From positions 1 through 63,049 of the forward strand of contig DXIQ01000051.1 in assembly GCA_019112785.1 (NCBI GenBank): a DNA stretch of 63,049 nt. Direction: 5' to 3'. Position 1 is the stretch's first letter. Each line of letters starts with the position of its first letter. Origin of the DNA: Candidatus Blautia stercorigallinarum (GTDB lineage Bacteria; Bacillota; Clostridia; Lachnospirales; Lachnospiraceae). The position numbers were made by a program, and so were the translations under genes. Shown piece after piece: positions 2,849 to 57,625 of this stretch. The notes below the pieces were generated by a model, which worked only from the letters and a program-made list of their open reading frames with translations, did not search any database and was not told the DNA's origin.

Positions 2849-4387
2849 TTATAATTGTCCGGTTATGATCTTCCGGCTGTCTTCTACGGTAGGCGGGACT
2901 TCCAGAAAATGATCATCAAAGAGAGAAAGCTGGCGGTAGGTCTGAGGATGTTCCAGATCCCACAGGGAGCTTTTTTCACTCTGGGTCAACTGCCTGGTGA
3001 TAAAGTCCTCTTCAATAGGAGTACGGTACCGCATTTTTCCATGGCAGGTGATAAAATACTGGGCCCGTTTCAGAACTACCCCCATAGTCTTCAACGAAGA
3101 AAAATCCAGCCGGCCACAGCGTCTTGCCTGAAGGATCCTCCAGGCGGATTTATTTCCGATGCCGGGTACTTTCAAAAGATCCTGATAGGAGGCTTTGGAG
3201 ACTTCTATGGGAAAAAGCTCCAGATGTCGAAGCGCCCAGTCACATTTAGGATCCAGAAAGATATTAAAATCCGGCCGGGAAGGACTGAGAAGATCGTCTG
3301 CCTGAAATCCATAATATCTTAAAAGCCAGTCCGCCTGATAAAGCCGGTGTTCTCTCAGAAGAGGGGGCGTTGTGTCCAGAGATGGAAGATCCCGGTCTTC
3401 ATTCAAAGGAATGTATGCAGAGAAGAATACCCTTTTCAGATCATACTGCTGGTATAAAGCCTGGGTGACTTTCAGAAGCTGGTAGTCGTTCTCAGGAGTA
3501 GCGCCTATGATCATCTGAGTGCTCTGTCCTGCAGGGGCAAAGGGACGGGAGAGTCCTTTTGGGGAAACCGCCTTTTCCGGAAAAGGAACAGAGGACGGGG
3601 CAATGCTGGACAGAGCAGTTCCTGAAGGAACCAGGGGTTGTCCGGGAAGAGTCCCTGCCGGACCGTCTAACCGATTGTTTTTTTTACCGGATGAGGAAAA
3701 AATGTTTCCTGACAGATACTGATTCCCGAAATGACGCTCCATGGAGGCGGTTTTTCCAATGGACAGCCGGTAGTCCCGGATCTGCTGCCGGATCTGGCCC
3801 ATAGGTCTAAGGATAGCCTGGTGATCTTTGCCGGGGGCAAGAAGCTGAAGGCTTTCTTTGGTGGGAAGTTCCATGTTGACACTCATACGGTCTGCCAGAT
3901 AACCGATCTTCTGTATGATCTCGGGAGCGGCTCCAGGCACGGCTTTTGCATGGATATAGCCCCGGAAATGGTACTGAGTCCGCAAGAGAAAAAGGGTCTG
4001 ATACATCAGTTCCATGGTATAGGTGGGATTTTTTATTACTCCGGAGCTTAAGAAAAGTCCTTCAATGTAATTTCTTTTGTAAAATTCTATAGTAATGGTA
4101 CATAGTTCTTCCGGGGTAAAAGAGGTCCGGATCCTCTGGTTAGAGCGACGGTTGATGCAGTATTTGCAGTCATAAATACAGTCGTTAGAGAGAAGGACCT
4201 TTAACAGAGAAATGCACCGGCCGTCAGCGGCAAAGCTGTGGCAGATACCCCAGGCTCTGGAATTGCCAAGGCTTCCTTTTTCTCCCTTTCGATCCACACC
4301 GCTGGAAGTACAGGCTACGTCATATTTGGCGGCGTCTGACAGGATCTTTAATTTTTCTTCTAAGTCTGGTTCACGTTTTATTTCCAT
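2849..4387 (-). CDS. TIGR03916-like radical SAM protein, putative DNA repair or modification
   Basis: The product has 512 residues. A radical SAM cluster motif CIYDCKYC (Cys-x3-Cys-x2-Cys) lies near residues 71-78, and a helix-hairpin-helix-like LLKVPGIGNKSAWRIL segment lies near residue 410, as expected for a DNA-binding enzyme. About 80 residues of Ser/Pro/Gly-rich sequence (roughly 220-295) sit between the two halves; homologues that I recall are near 420 residues, so this looks like an insertion. The gene is first in a two-gene operand unit with the TIGR03915-like gene. Its promoter carries two SOS-type boxes. Substrate unknown. Confidence 0.8.
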   Translation of the reverse strand: MEIKREPDLEEKLKILSDAAKYDVACTSSGVDRKGEKGSLGNSRAWGICHSFAADGRCISLLKVLLSNDCIYDCKYCINRRSNQRIRTSFTPEELCTITIEFYKRNYIEGLFLSSGVIKNPTYTMELMYQTLFLLRTQYHFRGYIHAKAVPGAAPEIIQKIGYLADRMSVNMELPTKESLQLLAPGKDHQAILRPMGQIRQQIRDYRLSIGKTASMERHFGNQYLSGNIFSSSGKKNNRLDGPAGTLPGQPLVPSGTALSSIAPSSVPFPEKAVSPKGLSRPFAPAGQSTQMIIGATPENDYQLLKVTQALYQQYDLKRVFFSAYIPLNEDRDLPSLDTTPPLLREHRLYQADWLLRYYGFQADDLLSPSRPDFNIFLDPKCDWALRHLELFPIEVSKASYQDLLKVPGIGNKSAWRILQARRCGRLDFSSLKTMGVVLKRAQYFITCHGKMRYRTPIEEDFITRQLTQSEKSSLWDLEHPQTYRQLSLFDDHFLEVPPTVEDSRKIITGQL

Positions 4388-4628: not shown

Positions 4629-6098
4629 ATGGATGCATATCATATCTATCAGGATATCCAGGCCCGTACAAACGGGGAAATTTACATAGGTGTAGTAGGA
4701 CCGGTCCGTACAGGAAAGTCTACTTTTATCAGACGTTTTATGGAGCTGGCAGTTCTCCCCAATATGGAGGAGAACCAGAAAAAAGAGGTCAGGGATCAGC
4801 TCCCTTTAAGCGGTTCCGGTAAAATGATCACTACAGTAGAGCCCAAATTTATCCCAAAGGAGGCAGCAAGGATTTCTCTGGGAGAGGATCTGGAAGCGAA
4901 AATACGTTTGATAGACTGCGTGGGATTTATGGTCCGTGATGCGGCAGGAAACATTGAAGAGGGAAAAGAACGGATGGTGAAAACCCCCTGGTTTGACTAT
5001 GAGATCCCTTTTCATCAGGCGGCGGAGACAGGTACCAGAAAAGTGATCGAGGAACATTCCAGCATTGGTCTGGTGATCACCTGCGATGGGTCCTTCGGGG
5101 AAATTCCCAGGGAAAATTACATAGAAGGGGAAGAGAAAACGGTTCAGGAACTGAAAAAGACAGGTAAGCCCTTTCTGATCCTGGTAAATTCTCAGAAACC
5201 CTATAAGGAAGAAACCCAGAATCTGGTCCAGGAACTGAAGAAAAAATATCAGGCGGGAGTGATCAGCGTAAACTGCGAGCAGCTCCGAAAAGAAGATGTT
5301 ACCAGGATCCTGGAGAAGATCCTTTATGAATTTCCTATTGTGCAGATGGAATTTTATGTGCCCAAATGGGTGGAAATGCTGCCGGCAGATCACTATCTGA
5401 AGGAAAATCTTCTGGATGGTATCCGGGAACTGATGGGGAAGATGAAGTATGTAAAAGACGCAGCCCGGGAACATCTTCCATTCTCTTCTGAATATGTAAG
5501 AAATATGACTCCGGAAAAGATTTCCCTTTCTAACGGCAGGGTACGGGTCCGGGTGGATATGGACGAAAAATGGTATTATGAGATCCTCAGCGAAATGACA
5601 GGGGTTTCTATCTCTGACGAGTATGAACTGATCCACACTATGCAGGAAATGGCGAAAATGAAGAAAGAATATGTAAAGGTCCAGGATGCCATTTCCGCAG
5701 TCCGCGGAAAAGGCTATGGAGTAGTGACGCCGGACAAAGAAGAGATCAAGCTGGAAGAGCCGGTGGTGATCAAACAGGGCAGCAAGTACGGGGTAAAGAT
5801 CAAATCAGTAAGTCCATCTATCCATATGATCCGGGCAAATATCGAGACAGAGATCGCTCCTATTGTAGGGAGCGAGGAGCAGGCCAAAGATCTGATCGAA
5901 TATATTAAAACCTGCGACGAAAGAAAAGAAAGCGTCTGGCAGACAAATATATTCGGAAAATCTATCGGACAGCTGGTGGAAGACGGGATCCACGCCAAGC
6001 TGGTACAGATCGGGGATGAGAGCCAGATAAAGCTCCAGGATACCATGCAGAAGATTGTCAATGACAGCAAGGGCGGACTGGTGTGTATTATCATATAA
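4629..6098 (+). CDS. spoIVA: Stage IV sporulation protein A, coat morphogenetic ATPase
   Basis: The product has 489 residues, close to the usual length of about 492. It has the P-loop GPVRTGKST (about residues 24-32) in the N-terminal ATPase domain, followed by the conserved middle and C-terminal segments of SpoIVA. The family polymerises on the outer forespore membrane under ATP hydrolysis to found the spore coat basement layer. AAGGAGG is just upstream of the ATG. In relatives it is made in the mother cell from a sigma-E promoter; I could not assign one here with confidence. It marks the host as an endospore former. Confidence 0.96.
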   Translation: MDAYHIYQDIQARTNGEIYIGVVGPVRTGKSTFIRRFMELAVLPNMEENQKKEVRDQLPLSGSGKMITTVEPKFIPKEAARISLGEDLEAKIRLIDCVGFMVRDAAGNIEEGKERMVKTPWFDYEIPFHQAAETGTRKVIEEHSSIGLVITCDGSFGEIPRENYIEGEEKTVQELKKTGKPFLILVNSQKPYKEETQNLVQELKKKYQAGVISVNCEQLRKEDVTRILEKILYEFPIVQMEFYVPKWVEMLPADHYLKENLLDGIRELMGKMKYVKDAAREHLPFSSEYVRNMTPEKISLSNGRVRVRVDMDEKWYYEILSEMTGVSISDEYELIHTMQEMAKMKKEYVKVQDAISAVRGKGYGVVTPDKEEIKLEEPVVIKQGSKYGVKIKSVSPSIHMIRANIETEIAPIVGSEEQAKDLIEYIKTCDERKESVWQTNIFGKSIGQLVEDGIHAKLVQIGDESQIKLQDTMQKIVNDSKGGLVCIII

Positions 6099-47831: not shown

Positions 47832-47862
47832 GTAATTATGATAAGTATGGAGGATGACGATA

Positions 47863-48405
47863 ATGAATGTGTTGGTAATTAACGGAAGTCCGCGGGCAAA
47901 AGGAAATTCAGATATTTTATGCGATGAGTTTATCCGCGGGGCAGAAGAAGCAGGACATCAGGTGGAAAAAATCTCACTTCGCGAAAAGAAAATCTTCCCA
48001 TGTAAGGCATGTTATGCCTGTTTCAGAACAGGCTCCTGTGTTCAGAAAGATGATATGGCGGAAATCCTCAGGAAGGCAGAAAATGCAGATGTACTCCTGC
48101 TGGCCTCCCCTACCTATTTTCTGACCATGAGCGGACAGATGAAAGTGATGATCGACCGGCTCCTTCCCAAATGGCAGGGGCTGGGAGGCAAGGAAGCTTA
48201 TGTGATCGTAACCGGACATGACGGAAAAAACGGTCTGAGAAGAAATGCCGAAGATCTGGCCGGTATATTGGAAAATCTGGGAGATCCTGTGCGGCAGGTG
48301 ATCTGGGGCGAATATGTCTGGCAAAAAGGAGAAGTAATAGGAACCAGGGCAATGGAAGAGGCATATCTGGCAGGGAAAGGGATTGGAAAGTATTATGGCG
48401 ATTAA
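47863..48405 (+). CDS. Iron-sulfur flavoprotein (NADPH-dependent FMN reductase fold)
   Basis: The product has 180 residues from the ATG at 47863, with GGAGG ten bases before it. It opens with the FMN phosphate loop NGSPRAKGNSD and carries CKACYACFRTGSC (about 47-59), the compact C-x2-C-x2-C-x5-C motif of iron-sulfur flavoproteins that holds a [4Fe-4S] cluster. ASPTYFLTMSGQMKVMIDR is the second flavin segment. It overlaps the next gene, a TetR-type regulator, by 11 bases. Confidence 0.88.
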   Translation: MNVLVINGSPRAKGNSDILCDEFIRGAEEAGHQVEKISLREKKIFPCKACYACFRTGSCVQKDDMAEILRKAENADVLLLASPTYFLTMSGQMKVMIDRLLPKWQGLGGKEAYVIVTGHDGKNGLRRNAEDLAGILENLGDPVRQVIWGEYVWQKGEVIGTRAMEEAYLAGKGIGKYYGD

Positions 48406-48991
48406 TATGAAACAGATCGTGGCAGATGCCATGCTGGAGCTGTGCCGGACAAAAGAACTGAAAACTGTTACGATAAAAGATATCCGGGAAAAGACCGGGA
48501 TCAGCAGACAGGGATTTTATAATCATTTCAAGGATAAAGATGACCTGATCCATTGGATTTATTATGACCGTGTAATGACAAATTTTCATGATATTGACGT
48601 AAGCAGGGGATACTATGAAAATCTGAAGGACTATTTCCTTAGGGCAGAAAAGTATCATTTTTTTCTGAAACCTGCTGTTATGATATGCGGTCAGAACTCT
48701 CTGAAAAACTACATGTTTGAACATCCTTTCCAGTGGGATCTTCAGTATCATGAAAAATGGTATGAGAAAAATGCGGGAGAAAAACCAGAGATGGAAGAAC
48801 TCCGTTTCTTTACCAAGTACCACTCCATGGCATCTGCAGGCATGACCATTGAATGGATCAAAGAAGATATGCCTGTCTCCCCGCAGATCATGGCAAAGCG
48901 GATTACGGATCTGAGAAGGATCGGCCTGGGCGTTCTGCTAAAGGATACAGAAGAAAAAGAAGAACATCCTTACGGAACTTCATTGCAATAA
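48395..48991 (+). CDS. TetR family regulator
   Basis: The product has 198 residues from the ATG at 48395. The N-terminal HTH reads TVTIKDIREKTGISRQGFYN, then HFKDKDDLIHWIYYD. The C-terminal ligand domain is unassigned. It overlaps the iron-sulfur flavoprotein gene and is probably its autogenous regulator. I see no copy of its own operator that can be told from other sites. A terminator follows at once. Confidence 0.88.
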   Translation: MAINMKQIVADAMLELCRTKELKTVTIKDIREKTGISRQGFYNHFKDKDDLIHWIYYDRVMTNFHDIDVSRGYYENLKDYFLRAEKYHFFLKPAVMICGQNSLKNYMFEHPFQWDLQYHEKWYEKNAGEKPEMEELRFFTKYHSMASAGMTIEWIKEDMPVSPQIMAKRITDLRRIGLGVLLKDTEEKEEHPYGTSLQ

Positions 48992-49115: not shown

Positions 49116-49658
49116 CTAAAAGATTGTCTTTTTATTTATAATACGCAGTACAAGAGCGGCTATTTCTTTTGGAGATTTGTCCATTCCAGCAATCAGCCAT
49201 TGCCGGAGGAGAAAATATGTGCCGCCTGCCAGAAAAGTGTAAAATAATTCCTCACTTTCCGAATCAAGGTCTTTCAGAATCTGGGCATCGCAGATATCCT
49301 GGTGAAGTGTTCGAAACATATCTGTCCACTCTTCATCTGAATTATATCGGATAAAAAGTGTTACTAGATCTGAATGATCCTGCAAATAGATAAAGATTTG
49401 TTCAAGATCCTGTTCTGTCTGAGGTTTTTTCATGGATTTACGCATTTCCTCCATGAATTCAGCCTGCATCTCATTTAAAATATCTTTTGGAAGTTCATAA
49501 TGACGGTAGAATGTTGTCCGGTTAATGCCTGACTCATTGCAAAGTTCCACAATATTGATCTTATCAAGGGGTTTTGTCTTTAGCAGACGAAGCAATCCTT
49601 CCTTTAACATCCGTTTTGTAATGATTGTTCTCTGATTATCTTTCAAAATATCAAACAT
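49116..49658 (-). CDS. TetR family regulator, probable repressor of the TGTTG-N6-CAACA sites
   Basis: The product has 180 residues. The HTH reads KINIVELCNESGINRTTFYR, then HYELPKDILNEM. The C-terminal part is helical, with an aromatic-rich FYTFLAGGTYFLLRQW. One palindrome of the family TGTTG-N6-CAACA lies 26 bases before its start codon, and pairs of them stand before the divergent radical SAM gene and a downstream nitroreductase. This arrangement makes it the best candidate for the regulator of all three units. Confidence 0.9.
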   Translation of the reverse strand: MFDILKDNQRTIITKRMLKEGLLRLLKTKPLDKINIVELCNESGINRTTFYRHYELPKDILNEMQAEFMEEMRKSMKKPQTEQDLEQIFIYLQDHSDLVTLFIRYNSDEEWTDMFRTLHQDICDAQILKDLDSESEELFYTFLAGGTYFLLRQWLIAGMDKSPKEIAALVLRIINKKTIF

Positions 49659-49683: not shown

Positions 49684-49699
49684 TGTTGTAAATGCAACA
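49684..49699. promoter_or_regulatory. TetR-type operator 1 (tetR promoter)
   Basis: TGTTG-TAAATG-CAACA, a perfect dyad with a six-base spacer, 26 bases before the tetR start; it would give autoregulation. Confidence 0.78.
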
Positions 49700-49799
49700 T
49701 GTGTTACATCATAATAATAAAAGTATTACTGTAGCTTGTCAAGAGAGATAAAGTTACTGTTCTTTTGTATTATGTTTAATGCAACACTATAGGACAATA

Positions 49800-49848
49800 T
49801 GTTACTTTTACAACTTATTAAAGTAAACTGAATGTTGCTAATACAACA
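49800..49848. promoter_or_regulatory. TetR-type operator pair before the radical SAM gene
   Basis: TGTTA-CTTTTA-CAACT (49800-49815, imperfect) and TGTTG-CTAATA-CAACA (49833-49848, perfect) begin 33 bases apart. TTGCTA within the second and TAAAAT after 18 bases form the likely promoter, so the operator covers the -35. A half site, GCAACA, lies at 49781. No gene lies in this 311-base gap. Confidence 0.8.
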
Positions 49849-49969
49849 AGTGTCGTGATAAAATCTATGCTGATATAAATACTTAAATTTATAAAAGCGC
49901 AGCGGACAGGGGAAGACTTGTCGAGCGGGGACTGTATCAAATCATACATAAGAAAAGGAGATAGATAAT

Positions 49970-51331
49970 ATGAGCAACAGTGTAACAAGAACAATTCAAA
50001 AATTCGGTTTGGAACAGGCCTTTAATTATCTGTATAAGGATCCAGATAAAAATATGCTGAAAATCATGGACTGGGCGGATAAATTCGCCGGCGATCAGTT
50101 TGTCAGCCAGCGGAAGCTGATCAGGGAGGCAATGACCAATCCGGAGCATCCATATTATGTATTTATCCGTCATGTCCTCAAAGACATTGATCCAAATGTG
50201 ATGAAGACGACGGCGGTAAACTTTTTTATCAATGCGGCATTAGTCGGCTGGCCGAAGCAGGAAGAACTCAGGAAAAAGTATGGCTGCAATATTCCGTGGG
50301 CTATCCTGCTGGATCCTACCAGTGCCTGTAATCTTCATTGTACAGGGTGCTGGGCTGCCGAATATGGCAATAAATTAAATTTAAGCTTTGATGAGATCGA
50401 CAGTATTATCCAGCAAGGAAAGGAATTAGGTGTATATTTATACATCTATACAGGCGGTGAGCCTATGGTGCGTAAAAAAGACTTGATTCGTCTTTGTGAG
50501 AAGCATAACGACTGTGTATTCCTCTGCTTTACAAATGGAACCTTGATCGATGAAGCTTTTGCTGATGATATGCTCCGCGTAGGAAATTTTATACCGGCGA
50601 TCTCTTTGGAAGGATTTGAGAGTGCCACAGATCTTCGCCGGGGTAACGGCGTATACAAAAAAGCAACGGACGCTATGGCGCTTCTTAAGAGAAAGAAACT
50701 GATCTATGGAATTTCAGCCTGCTATACAAGCGCAAACTTTGAATCCATCACATCAGAAGAGTTCTTTGACAGTCTGATCGAAATGGGAGCTTATTTTATA
50801 TGGTACTTCCACTATATGCCGGTAGGTAACGATGCATCTCCGGAACTGCTTCCCACACCGGAACAGAGAAAGGAGACTTATGACCGCATCAGAAAATATC
50901 GTGCGACAAAACCGCTTTTTGCCATGGATTTCCAGAACGATGCGGAATATGTGGGCGGATGTGTCGCAGGAGGACGCCGGTATTTGCATATTAACGCAAA
51001 TGGAGATGTTGACCCTTGTGTCTTTATTCATTATTCTGATTCAAATATCCGTGAAAAGACTCTGCTGGAAGCCCTTCAATCGCCGATGATGATGGCTTAC
51101 CATGACGGGCAGCCTTTTAATGATAATATGCTGCAGCCCTGTCCTATGCTGGAGAATCCGGATAAACTCAGGGAGATGGTGGAGAAAACAGGAGCTCGTT
51201 CCACAGATCTTCAGTCGCCGGAATCCGCAGATCATCTCTGCGCAAAATGTGACAGGTATGCAAAGGAATGGACGCCGGTGGCAGATGAACTCTGGGAGAA
51301 AGAAAAAGTAAAAAGAGCACAAAAAGCATAA
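49970..51331 (+). CDS. Radical SAM / SPASM protein
   Basis: The product has 453 residues. The cluster motif CNLHCTGC (Cys-x3-Cys-x2-Cys, about 118-125) follows DPTSA, and TGGEPMVRKKDL binds SAM. C-terminal cysteines (VGGCVAGGRRYLHINANGDVDPC and later CPML, CAKC) suggest an auxiliary SPASM-type cluster. An N-terminal helical extension of about 100 residues precedes the barrel. The substrate is unknown. It faces tetR and shares its operators, so it should be induced together with the nitroreductase-patatin pair. Confidence 0.88.
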   Translation: MSNSVTRTIQKFGLEQAFNYLYKDPDKNMLKIMDWADKFAGDQFVSQRKLIREAMTNPEHPYYVFIRHVLKDIDPNVMKTTAVNFFINAALVGWPKQEELRKKYGCNIPWAILLDPTSACNLHCTGCWAAEYGNKLNLSFDEIDSIIQQGKELGVYLYIYTGGEPMVRKKDLIRLCEKHNDCVFLCFTNGTLIDEAFADDMLRVGNFIPAISLEGFESATDLRRGNGVYKKATDAMALLKRKKLIYGISACYTSANFESITSEEFFDSLIEMGAYFIWYFHYMPVGNDASPELLPTPEQRKETYDRIRKYRATKPLFAMDFQNDAEYVGGCVAGGRRYLHINANGDVDPCVFIHYSDSNIREKTLLEALQSPMMMAYHDGQPFNDNMLQPCPMLENPDKLREMVEKTGARSTDLQSPESADHLCAKCDRYAKEWTPVADELWEKEKVKRAQKA

Positions 51332-51344
51332 AAGATAAAGATAC

Positions 51345-51376
51345 AAAAAGGGGCTATTTCCCGATAGCCCCTTTTT
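51345..51376 (+). terminator. Intrinsic terminator after the radical SAM gene
   Basis: GGGGCTA (51350-51356) pairs with TAGCCCC (51365-51371), flanked by A5 and T5. Confidence 0.93.
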
Positions 51377-51520
51377 CATAAAAGAAGTTCATAGAGCTTA
51401 AATTGCATGGGAACACCTATATCCGCATCTGATTTTTTACATTTTTGAGAATCCGGTTAGCCAAACGAGGAATCTTATTTACGACCATCATATGGCATGT
51501 TGTATTGAGATTAAAAAGAT

Positions 51521-51564
51521 AAAAGCCGAAACCCTTGATTCAATACAAGGTTGTTTCGGCTTTT
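51521..51564. terminator. Terminator of the HdeD/DUF308 gene
   Basis: AAAAGCCGAAAC-CCTTG (51521-51537) pairs with CAAGG-TT-GTTTCGGCTTTT (51546-51564). T runs are on both sides; it ends the minus-strand gene at 51581. Between 51377 and 51520 I see nothing. Confidence 0.88.
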
Positions 51565-51580
51565 CTATGCTATATCTGTT

Positions 51581-52123
51581 TTACCATCGGGAATCTAATA
51601 AGTTCAGAGCAAAAACGATACTGTCAACTCCAAGAAAGATCAGATAAATTCCGATTAAATACCCTATGGAGAAGAAAGAAATAAATGGATCAAAGATCAT
51701 CATAATGCCCAGGACCAATCCGATGATGTTTACAAAAAGAGTAAAGTAATAGTAGCCAAATCCGGAAGTTATGCGGATAAAAGGCAGATGTGCAAGCCGT
51801 GCAATACAATGGGCAATGAACCAGATAGGGAACAGGATGACCATTACCCACGTTCCGATTCCAAGATTAAATAGGATCAGAAAACCTGCGATGATACTGA
51901 TAATACCTCCCACCAGTGACAGAACAGGAGAAGTCCCTGTGCGCTCTTCCAGTTTGATATAAAAGATGATATCAATAATGCCGGTTATCAGTGCAACAAG
52001 GCCGTAAATAAAAGTCACTCCCCTTATTGCACCAGAAGGATTGATAAACGTATAGATTCCTAAAATGATAAGAAGAATTCCAAGGATAAGCTCACCCCAG
52101 CCAAGGTTTTTTCTATTTTTCAT
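51581..52123 (-). CDS. HdeD/DUF308 family membrane protein
   Basis: The product has 180 residues from the ATG at 52123 (AAGGAG nine bases upstream; a TTG two codons earlier is less good). Six membrane helices in three pairs are evident, with the DUF308 repeat pattern LGIYTFINPSGAI, LVALITGIIDIIFY and MMIFDPFISFFSIGYLIG. Members are linked to acid or general stress in other bacteria; here nothing more specific can be said. A tiny ORF precedes it in the same direction. Confidence 0.85.
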   Translation of the reverse strand: MKNRKNLGWGELILGILLIILGIYTFINPSGAIRGVTFIYGLVALITGIIDIIFYIKLEERTGTSPVLSLVGGIISIIAGFLILFNLGIGTWVMVILFPIWFIAHCIARLAHLPFIRITSGFGYYYFTLFVNIIGLVLGIMMIFDPFISFFSIGYLIGIYLIFLGVDSIVFALNLLDSRW

Positions 52124-52140
52124 GATCAATGACTCCTTTC

Positions 52141-52203
52141 CTAAAAATTGAACAGATCACAGTGTCCACACATCATGCTTTCAATAATGATTGTTTTTGT
52201 CAT
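52141..52203 (-). CDS. 20-residue ORF with HMA-type MxCxxC start, truncated or small peptide
   Basis: The frame MTKTIIIESMMCGHCDLFNF has a strong AAGGAGGAC ribosome site six bases before its ATG and ends 17 bases before the HdeD/DUF308 start. MTKTIIIE-MMCGHC is the first strand and metal-binding loop of heavy-metal-associated domains (copper chaperones), but the rest of the ~70-residue fold is gone. It may be a decayed chaperone or a small metal-binding leader. It is not covered by long ORFs. Confidence 0.5.
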   Translation of the reverse strand: MTKTIIIESMMCGHCDLFNF

Positions 52204-52512
52204 AGTTTTGTCCTCCTTGTTAGTTTTCTTTGTTTTGATTTTTTTATCTTTACTGGTGTTATACATTTTAAACCAGTTAAGACGCAATGGATTACTTACC
52301 ATGCAGAAGCTGGAAAGACTCATGGCCGCAGCTTTGAACATTGGACTTCGGCTTTATCAATCCGGCTTAAGGGATTTCTCTTCCAAATCTATCTATGCTG
52401 CTTTCATAAACCCCATGGGGGTATTCTTTTCGCGCTTACAATATATACCCTATGCCGGTATTTTTCAACCCCTTTGAAGAAAAATTATCAAAAGATACAG
52501 ATAAGGCGCGTA

Positions 52513-52561
52513 TGTTGCTTTTACAACGTATATGATAAAACTGAATGTTGTTAAAGCAACA
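52513..52561. promoter_or_regulatory. TetR-type operator pair before the nitroreductase gene
   Basis: TGTTG-CTTTTA-CAACG (52513-52528) and TGTTG-TTAAAG-CAACA (52546-52561) also begin 33 bases apart. The second covers a -35-like TTGTTA, with TATAAT 18 bases further on (52573-52578). The surrounding ACTGAATGTTG and CAACAAGTGT are shared with the site before the radical SAM gene. The rest of the 437-base gap (52204-52512) holds no gene that I can support. Confidence 0.82.
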
Positions 52562-52640
52562 AGTGTTGTGATATAATTCAGATGCCATATAGAATTAAAA
52601 TAAGTACAAAAGATTTAAAATAAAAAGGAAGGGATGAAAG

Positions 52641-53300
52641 ATGGATATCATACAGGCTATTAAAGAAAGACATTCTGTAAGAGTATATTCCGGAAAGAAG
52701 ATTGAGGAGGAAAAACGCCGGAAAATAGATACACTGATCGAAGAGTGTAATGAGGAGAGCGGACTTCATATTCAGATCCGCTATGATGATCCATCCGGCT
52801 TTGATTCCAGGCTGGCCCATTATGGGAAATTCCGGAATGTTGAGAATTATATTATTCTGGCGGGAATCCCTTCTGATGATCTTCAGGAAAAATGCGGTTA
52901 TTATGGAGAGAAGCTTGTCCTGGCAGCTCAGATGATGGGGCTTAATACCTGCTGGACAGCACTTACTTTCAATAAGACCAATGTGAAGAAAATCATCCCA
53001 ATGACTGAAAAACTGGTGCTGGTCATAGCTATAGGATATGGAGCGGATCAGGGAAAGGCACATAAGAGCAAAAAGATTGAAAGCGTTATGGCGACAAAAG
53101 GTGAGATGCCCGATGGGTTCCGTAAGGGGGCCGAGGCGGCGCTTCTCGCTCCAACAGCTATGAATCAGCAAAAGTTTAAGATGGGGATCAAGGATGGAAG
53201 TCCGGTTATCCGTGCAGCTGGAAAAGGGCCATATACAAAAATCGATCTTGGGATTGTAAAATATCATTTTGAGATTGCATCAGGACATAAGGTAAGATAA
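52641..53300 (+). CDS. Nitroreductase family protein
   Basis: The product has 219 residues. The FMN-binding start reads IKERHSVRVYSGKKI; the central GEKLVLAAQMMGLNTCWTAL and late APTAMNQQKF are nitroreductase hallmarks. It is FMN-dependent and would use NAD(P)H; its natural substrate is unknown. It is the first gene of the unit behind the paired TetR-type operators, 11 bases before the patatin gene. Confidence 0.88.
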   Translation: MDIIQAIKERHSVRVYSGKKIEEEKRRKIDTLIEECNEESGLHIQIRYDDPSGFDSRLAHYGKFRNVENYIILAGIPSDDLQEKCGYYGEKLVLAAQMMGLNTCWTALTFNKTNVKKIIPMTEKLVLVIAIGYGADQGKAHKSKKIESVMATKGEMPDGFRKGAEAALLAPTAMNQQKFKMGIKDGSPVIRAAGKGPYTKIDLGIVKYHFEIASGHKVR

Positions 53301-53311
53301 GGAGACCAGAT

Positions 53312-54169
53312 ATGAAAAGTGCCATTATAGATGTGGGCGGCGGAATGAGAGGAATCTATGCCGCAGGTGTTATGGATTGCTGTATGGAAGAAAATATTCA
53401 TTTCGATGTGGGTATCGGTGTGTCTGCAGGGAGTGCCAATATGGTTTCTTACGCCGCAGGTCAGAAAGGACGAAATTATCTGTTCTATACAGAATATTCA
53501 AGCCGTAAAGAATATATGAGTCTGAGAAACTTGATACATAAGGGAAGTTATATAGATATGGATTATATCTACGGATCGCTCAGCAATAAAGGCGGAGAAA
53601 ATCCCCTTGATTATCCCGCCATCGCTGCCAATCCGGCGGAGATCATCACTGTTGCGACCAATGCTCTCACTGGGGAAGCTAAATATTTCGATAAAAGTGA
53701 TATTGCTCAGGACAACTACGATATTATAAAGGCTTCCTGTTCGATTCCTCTGGCATGTCCTCCGTATATGGTAAAAGGGACACCTTATTATGACGGGGCG
53801 CTCAGTGATCCGATTCCGGTGGAAAAAGCTTTCTTCATGGGCTGTGATAAAGTTGTCCTGATCCTTACAAGACCGAAGGATTTTCGCAGAAAACCGGGAA
53901 AGGACCGGTTGATCGCCAGCGGAATACGAAGGAAATACCCAAGAGCGGCAGCGCGGATGGAACAGCGTGCGGATAACTATAATGCCTTGCTTGATCAAGC
54001 AGTCAGCTTGGAACACCAGGGCAGGATTTTGATCATTGCACTGGATGATATCTGTGGTATGGACACCCTGACCCGTGACAAAGATGCAATGGAGAGATTT
54101 TATAAAAAAGGATTACGGGATGGCGGCGCGATTTCCCTTTATTTAAAAAATGATGTTATTCCCAAATGA
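53312..54169 (+). CDS. Patatin-like phospholipase
   Basis: The product has 285 residues. The oxyanion loop DVGGGMRGIYAAGV (7-20), nucleophile motif GVSAGS (about 38-43) and catalytic-dyad aspartate in YYDGALSDPIPV are all intact, so it should hydrolyse lipid acyl esters. No signal peptide is present; it is cytoplasmic. It is cotranscribed with the nitroreductase and probably controlled by the same TetR-type protein. Confidence 0.93.
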   Translation: MKSAIIDVGGGMRGIYAAGVMDCCMEENIHFDVGIGVSAGSANMVSYAAGQKGRNYLFYTEYSSRKEYMSLRNLIHKGSYIDMDYIYGSLSNKGGENPLDYPAIAANPAEIITVATNALTGEAKYFDKSDIAQDNYDIIKASCSIPLACPPYMVKGTPYYDGALSDPIPVEKAFFMGCDKVVLILTRPKDFRRKPGKDRLIASGIRRKYPRAAARMEQRADNYNALLDQAVSLEHQGRILIIALDDICGMDTLTRDKDAMERFYKKGLRDGGAISLYLKNDVIPK

Positions 54170-56752: not shown

Positions 56753-57625
56753 ATGGAACTGCGTGTACTGAAATATTTTCTTACAGTAGCGGACGAGGGC
56801 AATATTACAAGAGCTGCAGACATTCTTCATGTGACCCAGCCTACGCTCAGCCGTCAGCTGATGGAATTGGAAGATGAGCTGGGCACTGTGCTGCTGATCC
56901 GGGGAAAACGTTCGGTTACCCTGACAGATGAAGGGCTTTTGTTTAAACAACAGGCAGAAACTATCGTAGAACTGGCAGATAAGCTGGAACATACTTTTAC
57001 TGATCGTCAGGATGTGATCTGCGGAACGATCCGGATCGGTGCGACCGAAGCCATAGGAGGCCATACACTGGCAGTCTGCATGAAAGAATTTCGTGAAAGA
57101 TACCCGGCTGTGCAGTTTGATCTTTATAATGGCATGGCGGATAATATCAAAGAGATGATCGAGCATGGGCTGCTGGACCTGGGGCTTGTTATGGAGCCCA
57201 TTGATACCTCCAAGTTTGAATATGTCAGACTTCCTCAGAAAGAGACCTGGGGCATTCTTATCAGAAAAGATCATGAACTTGCCGAAAAAGAGACCGTGAC
57301 GATCGAAGATATAAAGAAATATCCCCTGATCATGCCGGGAAGAGAAAATGCCAAAAATCAGATCCTTCACTGGATGCAGTGCGAGGAACGGCACTTAAAT
57401 ATTCCCGCTTATTATAATCTTCTTTCCAACAGCGCATTGCTGGTAGAGGCGGGCATGGGCTGTGCCGTCTGTCTGGACGGCGCACTGTCTATACATGCGG
57501 ATCCGGAACTTTGCTTCCGCCAGATCTTTCCTACCCATGTTACCAGAAGCGTGATCCTGTGGAAAAAGAATCATCTGTTTTCTCAGGCAGTTTCCCTTTT
57601 CGTACAGACGATACAGGAACATTAA
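56753..57625 (+). CDS. LysR family transcriptional regulator
   Basis: The product has 290 residues. The HTH reads YFLTVADEGNITRAADILHV, then TQPTLSRQLMELEDELG. The effector domain (about 90-290) has GTIRIGATEAIGGHTL and DLGLVMEPID, typical of LysR proteins. It is the only intact LysR gene here and hence the best candidate for reading the ATTCATA-N5-TATGAAT or ATAAGT-TTT-ACTTAT operators, but this is unproven. It is followed by a terminator and convergent genes. Confidence 0.93.
   Translation: MELRVLKYFLTVADEGNITRAADILHVTQPTLSRQLMELEDELGTVLLIRGKRSVTLTDEGLLFKQQAETIVELADKLEHTFTDRQDVICGTIRIGATEAIGGHTLAVCMKEFRERYPAVQFDLYNGMADNIKEMIEHGLLDLGLVMEPIDTSKFEYVRLPQKETWGILIRKDHELAEKETVTIEDIKKYPLIMPGRENAKNQILHWMQCEERHLNIPAYYNLLSNSALLVEAGMGCAVCLDGALSIHADPELCFRQIFPTHVTRSVILWKKNHLFSQAVSLFVQTIQEH

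Follow-up and report, generated by a model that had tools for sequence, protein, structure and literature searches.

A predicted TetR_C_8 regulon of Candidatus Blautia stercorigallinarum with paired operators 33 bp apart, a spacing that recurs beside distant homologs

In a stretch of 63,049 nucleotides from Candidatus Blautia stercorigallinarum (contig DXIQ01000051.1 of assembly GCA_019112785.1, G000:C7 in our genome set), which we call the window and which is one contig of a genome of 3,328,947 bases, sites of the form TGTTG-N6-CAACA stand once before a TetR_C_8-type regulator gene and as pairs, starting 33 base pairs (bp) apart, before a radical SAM gene and before a nitroreductase-patatin unit. 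The arrangement suggests a small regulon made up of tetR, the radical SAM gene and the nitroreductase-patatin unit. The same 33-bp spacing recurs in the promoters that adjoin distant homologs of the regulator, and it is on this recurrence that our argument is built. We consider it probable, judging from sequence, that the TetR protein encoded at 49116–49658 represses its own promoter together with the two paired-site promoters, that a ligand would release it, and that the regulon would serve membrane-lipid remodelling.

Sites were scored as matches to the 10 fixed letters of the motif, and no strand is assigned to them. The operator before tetR (49684–49699, TGTTGTAAATGCAACA) is perfect at 10/10 and has a counterpart at position 3778 of the nearest relative (L016), in which the regulator and the window TetR share 81% identity. 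At the radical SAM promoter, site B (49800–49815, TGTTACTTTTACAACT) matches at 8/10, with two mismatches, and is followed after 33 bp by a perfect site C (49833–49848); at the nitroreductase promoter, site B (52513–52528, TGTTGCTTTTACAACG) has one mismatch (9/10) and again a perfect site C lies 33 bp after it (52546–52561). A probable weak site A (49771–49786, TATGTTTAATGCAACA, 7/10) precedes site B of the radical SAM promoter by 29 bp, a step that fits the one found in homologs; it was absent from an earlier note on this DNA. That note had proposed a TetR regulon with five TGTTG-N6-CAACA sites, and its coordinates and the start-to-start spacing of 33 bp are correct; the regulon itself is upheld as a TetR-type regulator with a predicted site at its own promoter and two target promoters with paired sites. 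As to the five sites, the motif is exact at 49684, 49833 and 52546, with one mismatch at 52513 and two at 49800.

The enrichment of single sites in the window is modest: five matches with at most one mismatch were found where 1.46 are expected, a count reached in 1 of 100 shuffles; the five take in an unrelated match at 56937 and leave out the 49800 site. Genome-wide, the perfect motif occurs in five places, three of which are 49684, 49833 and 52546, the remaining two lying in an rplU-like reading frame (a name read by eye) and in a cobalamin riboswitch. A degenerate form of the paired pattern with gaps of 12–24 occurs in two places in the genome, which are the two window pairs, and a reversed control in none.

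The flanks of the two promoters, which the earlier note had described as conserved, do agree: the radical SAM and nitroreductase promoters are identical at 60 of 92 positions (49793–49884), and agreement drops outside this interval. The two may thus be copies of one block and are best counted as one observation of the spacing. An explanation of this kind could be taken further, with the pair having arisen by copying of one promoter block within the genome and the 33 bp being an accident without function; the 60/92 agreement, by which the window promoters are not mutually independent, speaks for it. We regard it as very improbable, because the 33-bp pair recurs beside TetR homologs that are 26–50% identical to the window TetR (13 of the 14 being present in the alignment), and does so across further families of the order, where targets and linkers differ.

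Homologs were collected by a protein search with the window TetR over 397 genomes of the family, 8 of which gave a match at E 1e-25, and by two profile searches, one over 392 genomes of the order with 21 matching at 1e-32 and one over the same 397 family genomes with 43 matching at 1e-30. After leaving out loci in which tetR is incomplete (L100, L101) and duplicates (L184–L186, of L098, L102 and L103), 46 upstream regions were cut, and setting aside the window (L164) and its nearest relative L016 left 44. Between sites of at least 7/10, a distance of 33 bp occurs in 14 of these regions, one of 29 bp in 11 and one of 62 bp in 10; within the range of 16–80 bp, no other spacing exceeds 5. In 300 dinucleotide shuffles of the 44 regions the 33-bp count had a mean of 0.30 and a maximum of 2, and among 363 control pieces of 300 nucleotides (nt) taken from elsewhere in the same loci a 33-bp pair occurred in 2, the commonest spacing there reaching 7 of 363. 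The 33-bp spacing ranks first at thresholds of 6, 7, 8 and 9; at threshold 7 it is retained in 12 of 38 regions when near-identical promoters are removed, and in 9 of 32 when the clade of the window regulator is dropped as well. A consensus-free test, which asks that four half sites be alike, also placed 33 first and 29 second (z 3.2 and 2.4). A later set comprised 18 of 19 profile matches from outside the earlier loci, the incomplete G373:C41 copy being excluded. At 7/10, the 33-bp spacing was again the top one, in 5 of the 18 regions (200 shuffles: mean 0.115, maximum 1), and at 8/10 the pair was found in 2 of the 18. All five carry CTG at the same linker position, and four of them can be considered independent, since L227 is a close relative of L193. 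The 33-bp pair turns up at scattered points in both main branches of a quick tree of the 46 regulators, with 10 changes (17 of the 43 inner branches being weakly supported). The spacing thus looks, on the strength of these comparisons, like an old shared promoter design and not like chance or a local accident. A motif extended by a third half site matched in 70 of the 397 genomes, mostly at scattered places, with the G060 site among them, and was not used further.

The predicted radical SAM promoter (49835–49864, + strand) has its −35 box, TTGCTA, at 49835–49840 inside site C and its −10 box, TAAAAT, at 49859–49864, a position common to homologs; the predicted nitroreductase promoter (52548–52577, + strand) likewise has TTGTTA at 52548–52553 inside site C and TATAAT at 52572–52577. 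At both targets, then, the −35 hexamer (TTGnnn) is predicted to fall in the left half of site C, and the operator overlaps the predicted core promoter, as is characteristic of TetR switches. Among the 14 regions with a 33-bp B–C pair, a −10 box with at least 5/6 identity to TATAAT lies 8–10 nt after C in 11 and is complete (6/6) in 8, a further TGT follows C after 2–3 nt in 12, the linker before C ends in CTGnn in 9, and a site A of at least 7/10 is also present in 6. Since 29 and 33 add up to 62, the three recurrent spacings describe a three-site array, A-29-B-33-C, of which the radical SAM promoter holds A, B and C and the nitroreductase promoter B and C. The earlier note had equated the spacing with three helical turns; counted at 10.5 bp to the turn, it comes to 3.14 and not exactly three, and the steps of 29 and 62 bp come to 2.76 and 5.90. 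A and C face almost the same way on the helix and B is slightly turned.

We propose that the TetR_C_8 protein would bind its own promoter once, at 49684, and the two target promoters at the paired sites B and C. A dimer on site C would block RNA polymerase, because this site contains the −35 box, and another dimer, placed at B and facing nearly the same side of the helix, would strengthen the binding. Release of the protein by a membrane-active compound or a lipid-like ligand would induce the additional copy of a conserved radical SAM enzyme together with the flavin enzyme-patatin unit, and the induced enzymes might then remodel or repair membrane lipids. Repression appears the most likely mode of action, because C covers the −35 box of strong-looking promoters, tetR has a site of its own and B adds a dimer.

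The regulator gene (49116–49658, − strand) encodes 180 amino acids (aa) and matches Pfam TetR_C_8 with 49.3 bits (cut-off 26.1); Pfam TetR_N was not listed for it at E 0.001 and is listed for other TetR_C_8 proteins here. Across 27 homologs R47, T49, F50, Y51 and Y54 are invariant. The radical SAM/SPASM protein (49970–51331, + strand, 453 aa) reaches 60 bits for Radical_SAM (cut-off 29.5) and 27.5 for SPASM PF13186 (cut-off 21.5), and a fold model agrees. The second unit consists of a TM1586-type nitroreductase gene (52641–53300, + strand, 219 aa; TM1586_NiRdase, 244.4 bits) and a patatin-like phospholipase gene (53312–54169, + strand, 285 aa), the latter matching Patatin PF01734 with 79.2 bits (cut-off 27.7) and DUF6363 with 37.9 bits. 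Patatin-like phospholipases carry the motifs GxSxG and DG, and the translation here contains GVSAG and DGA. Between the two units lies a DUF308 membrane protein gene (51581–52123, − strand; DUF308, 76.2 bits), the product of which is 23% identical to the DUF308 protein of G060 and gives no significant alignment with that of L018. We considered it as a direct target and set it aside, since the interval 52124–52512 has one 7/10 site (52428) and none better. Directly next to the locus, at 47854–48991, come an FMN reductase gene and then a further gene for a TetR_C_8-type regulator.

The radical SAM enzyme belongs to a strongly conserved family. At least 588 places that code for a relative came out of a scan that took one genome per species. 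The best 80 were retained, in 74 of which the gene could be called, and the nearest named relatives are mostly Lachnospiraceae-type gut bacteria. Over 41 sequences the mean column identity is 79%, and the CxxxCxxC residues C120, C124 and C127 are invariant. Within 4 kb of the gene in the 74 callable loci lie the TetR_C_8 cluster (44), DUF308 (29), VTT (19), DegV (16) and LPG_synthase_TM (10), each family having been checked with Pfam through one or two of its members, 10 members in all; a cluster read as SAM synthetase was found within the same distance in 10 of the 74. One could take the radical SAM/SPASM protein for a peptide-maturing enzyme in a cluster that makes a modified peptide, as the SPASM domain and the nearest solved folds (anSME, SkfB and SuiB) would allow. 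We find this distinctly doubtful: among small reading frames outside larger ones and within 1 kb of the gene, none is common to more than 4 of the 74 loci, and none of the 25 of 47 matching NCBIfam families that were listed reaches its cut-off, the best being NirJ2 with 81.3 against 500.

This regulator does not appear to be the general controller of the enzyme, since related radical SAM loci lack a site of 9/10 or better, whether counted by gene or by operon. Within 330 bp upstream of the gene, 0 of 80 loci have a site of at least 9/10 and 8 have one of 8/10 (in five of the 80 less upstream DNA is available, and the stretch falls inside the leading DUF308 gene where there is one). Upstream of the whole operon, leading DUF308 included, the counts are 0 of 74 and 7, and one operon of the 74 (L055) has a 33-bp pair at 7/10. 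A different TetR_C_8 branch, 13–23% identical to the window TetR over 45 sequences, is linked to these loci, and 33 bp is not the top repeat spacing upstream of their operons (71 regions, z 1.1) or of the linked TetR genes (48, z 1.4). Recurrent TGTCTG-like repeats, with GGATA or TGTCCA nearby, were seen by eye upstream of the radical SAM or DUF308 gene in L041, L049, L058 and L061; they are perhaps the operator of this other branch. The same genome holds a second radical SAM copy, 86% identical (G000:C66:8198-9544; L216 6196–7554), with a different upstream region, the only site of at least 7/10 within 600 bp upstream being one of 8/10 inside the preceding gene. Given this single site, the copy in the window seems to be an additional one under a switch of its own.

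Several of the homologous regulators face membrane and lipid genes. In a tally over 43 homologs (L164, L177, whose frame is doubtful, and L195, whose frame was not found, being left out) the targets include NAD-dependent epimerase-like proteins (13), MMPL (10), DUF308 (3) and DegV (3), the last being the type to which FakB proteins belong, with single matches to TauE, a PLD-type cardiolipin synthase and HlyD among others. The regulators of G060 (50% identical to the window TetR) and G677 (46%) both face a DUF308-cardiolipin synthase operon with a 33-bp pair before it, the synthases scoring 297.5 and 301.5 for TIGR04265 (cut-off 290); that of G130 (34% identical) faces a cardiolipin synthase scoring 306.7. 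Others face DUF308 and then an AI-2E-type transporter (G161), TauE (G186), an AI-2E-type protein (G373, regulator incomplete) or a terpene-cyclase-like membrane protein followed by FtsH (G275), and in G677 an MGDG_synth-domain gene lies beside tetR (its score for diglucosyl-diacylglycerol synthase is 112, the cut-off being 500). At 7/10 the 33-bp pair is present in G060, G677 and G186, and G161 has a weak one with sites of 6/10 and 9/10. The membrane-lipid theme is strongest in the window regulator's own branch. The earlier note had gone further and described a pathway joining the radical SAM enzyme, a flavin enzyme and a lipid hydrolase; the membrane-lipid theme in this proposal gains support from the cardiolipin synthase-facing homologs and from the radical SAM neighbours, and a single defined pathway is at this point only inferred.

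A nitroreductase within the regulon, an FMN reductase gene next to it and the exporter-like MMPL proteins in 10 of the 43 homolog targets might also be read as parts of a switch that serves to detoxify a nitro compound or an electrophile, with the link to membranes being secondary. We think this improbable: what the closest homologs face is a gene for cardiolipin synthase, DUF308 or another membrane protein, and lipid and membrane genes recur around the radical SAM family.

Several observations weigh against repression of a membrane-lipid regulon by the window TetR. The genome encodes seven TetR_C_8-type proteins, and the assignment of the sites to this one therefore rests on proximity and on the homologs. 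At 7/10, 30 of the 44 regions have no 33-bp pair, and in the later set at 6/10 the spacing, with 7 of 18 regions, is not the top one, 29 bp being found in 9 and the shuffle maximum being 7. Among the nearest homologs of the window TetR the 7/10 pair is absent in G161, G130, G275 and the incomplete G373, and the 13 epimerase-type targets among the 43 are not obviously lipid genes. In L016, the 33-bp pair (3892, 3925) stands before a second tetR gene and not before the radical SAM gene, and between the radical SAM and nitroreductase genes there is no site of at least 7/10. Site B is about where a class I activator would sit, and the named relatives are activators, DhaS by its title and Streptococcus pneumoniae FasR by its positive action on fabM (PMC12647141).

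These last points could be accommodated by dual control, in which, as reportedly at the two-motif promoter of pneumococcal SczA, the ligand-free protein would repress from C and the ligand-bound protein activate from B. If the start is set 7 bp after the −10 box, the centre of B would lie about 63 bp upstream and that of C about 30 bp, and to the activating relatives may be added SczA, a TetR-type protein of S. pneumoniae that activates czcD with metals (PMC4672087). We nevertheless judge dual control unlikely, in view of core promoters that look strong unaided, with a complete −10 box in 8 of the 14 regions, and of the −35 box being covered by C at both window targets. We keep to the repression of a membrane-lipid regulon as set out above. 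A bolder version, which we put forward tentatively as a possible though not a favoured one, would be that A-29-B-33-C is an old promoter code read by a large TetR_C_8 clade in this bacterium's order, with three dimers assembling on it into an ordered complex that tunes membrane-lipid genes, repressing as well as activating them, and that the radical SAM protein under its control is an undescribed membrane-lipid enzyme, very strongly conserved in gut Firmicutes.

Some further detail comes from other genomes. L016 carries its radical SAM, nitroreductase and patatin genes at a greater distance downstream, and the first of these is preceded by one 7/10 site. Also in L016, a 341-aa protein (4656–5681, − strand) clusters by BLAST with the radical SAM family, has no Pfam match and by eye lacks CxxxCxxC; it is perhaps a worn or non-catalytic relative. 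In L101 (G021, 1498–2038), a regulator fragment about 62% identical to the window TetR overlaps and adjoins fragments of a radical SAM family gene, and these fragments appear to be a decayed version of the window neighbourhood. Pairs of TGTTGA-N4-TCAACA, or of sequences close to it, spaced about 36–38 bp were seen in other family genomes (L138, L143, L146, L147, L150, L153, L155, L159, L162 and L163) near MarR-like, DegV or ACP/FabK-like genes, names that were read from translations; they look like a separate FabT-type fatty-acid regulon.

If borne out, a fixed operator geometry would have outlasted divergence of the regulator to 26–30% identity as well as changes of target, and would help to predict from sequence which genes this large TetR class controls. 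The findings also point to a radical SAM enzyme tied to membrane and lipid genes, the chemistry of which can be sought by lipid analysis.

Among known systems, the radical SAM protein shares the radical SAM core and SPASM domain with anSME, SkfB and SuiB. Its model consists of this SPASM-type core and an additional helical N-terminal stretch of about 105 residues (pLDDT 87), and identity in the structural matches, which are among the structures listed (absence from the listing being uninformative), is 17–19%; unlike these three, it has no evident reading frame for a peptide substrate. As for the regulator, a profile of its homologs matches the structure of Listeria DHSK_reg (PDB 4MK6) at 1.5e-15, while against the model of the Lactococcus lactis activator DhaS (PDB 2IU5; TIGR02366) it scores 38.3 bits, below the cut-off of 129. 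The pneumococcal FasR (SPV_0647) is a TetR-type protein that also has 4MK6 as its best structural match, adjoins fakB3 and affects membrane fatty acids (PMC12647141). The likeness, as drawn from this description, lies in the 4MK6 match and the fatty-acid link, with DegV in 3 of the 43 homolog targets here. SczA resembles the dual-control scheme as a TetR-type regulator acting positively at its target promoter and differs in its metal response and its czcD target. Control by TetR proteins from operators that overlie the promoter is familiar. Titles and the starts of abstracts in the open-licence literature contained no description of the regulon, of its operator spacing or of a conserved 29/33 three-site array shared by a broad TetR_C_8 clade, a negative that counts for little.

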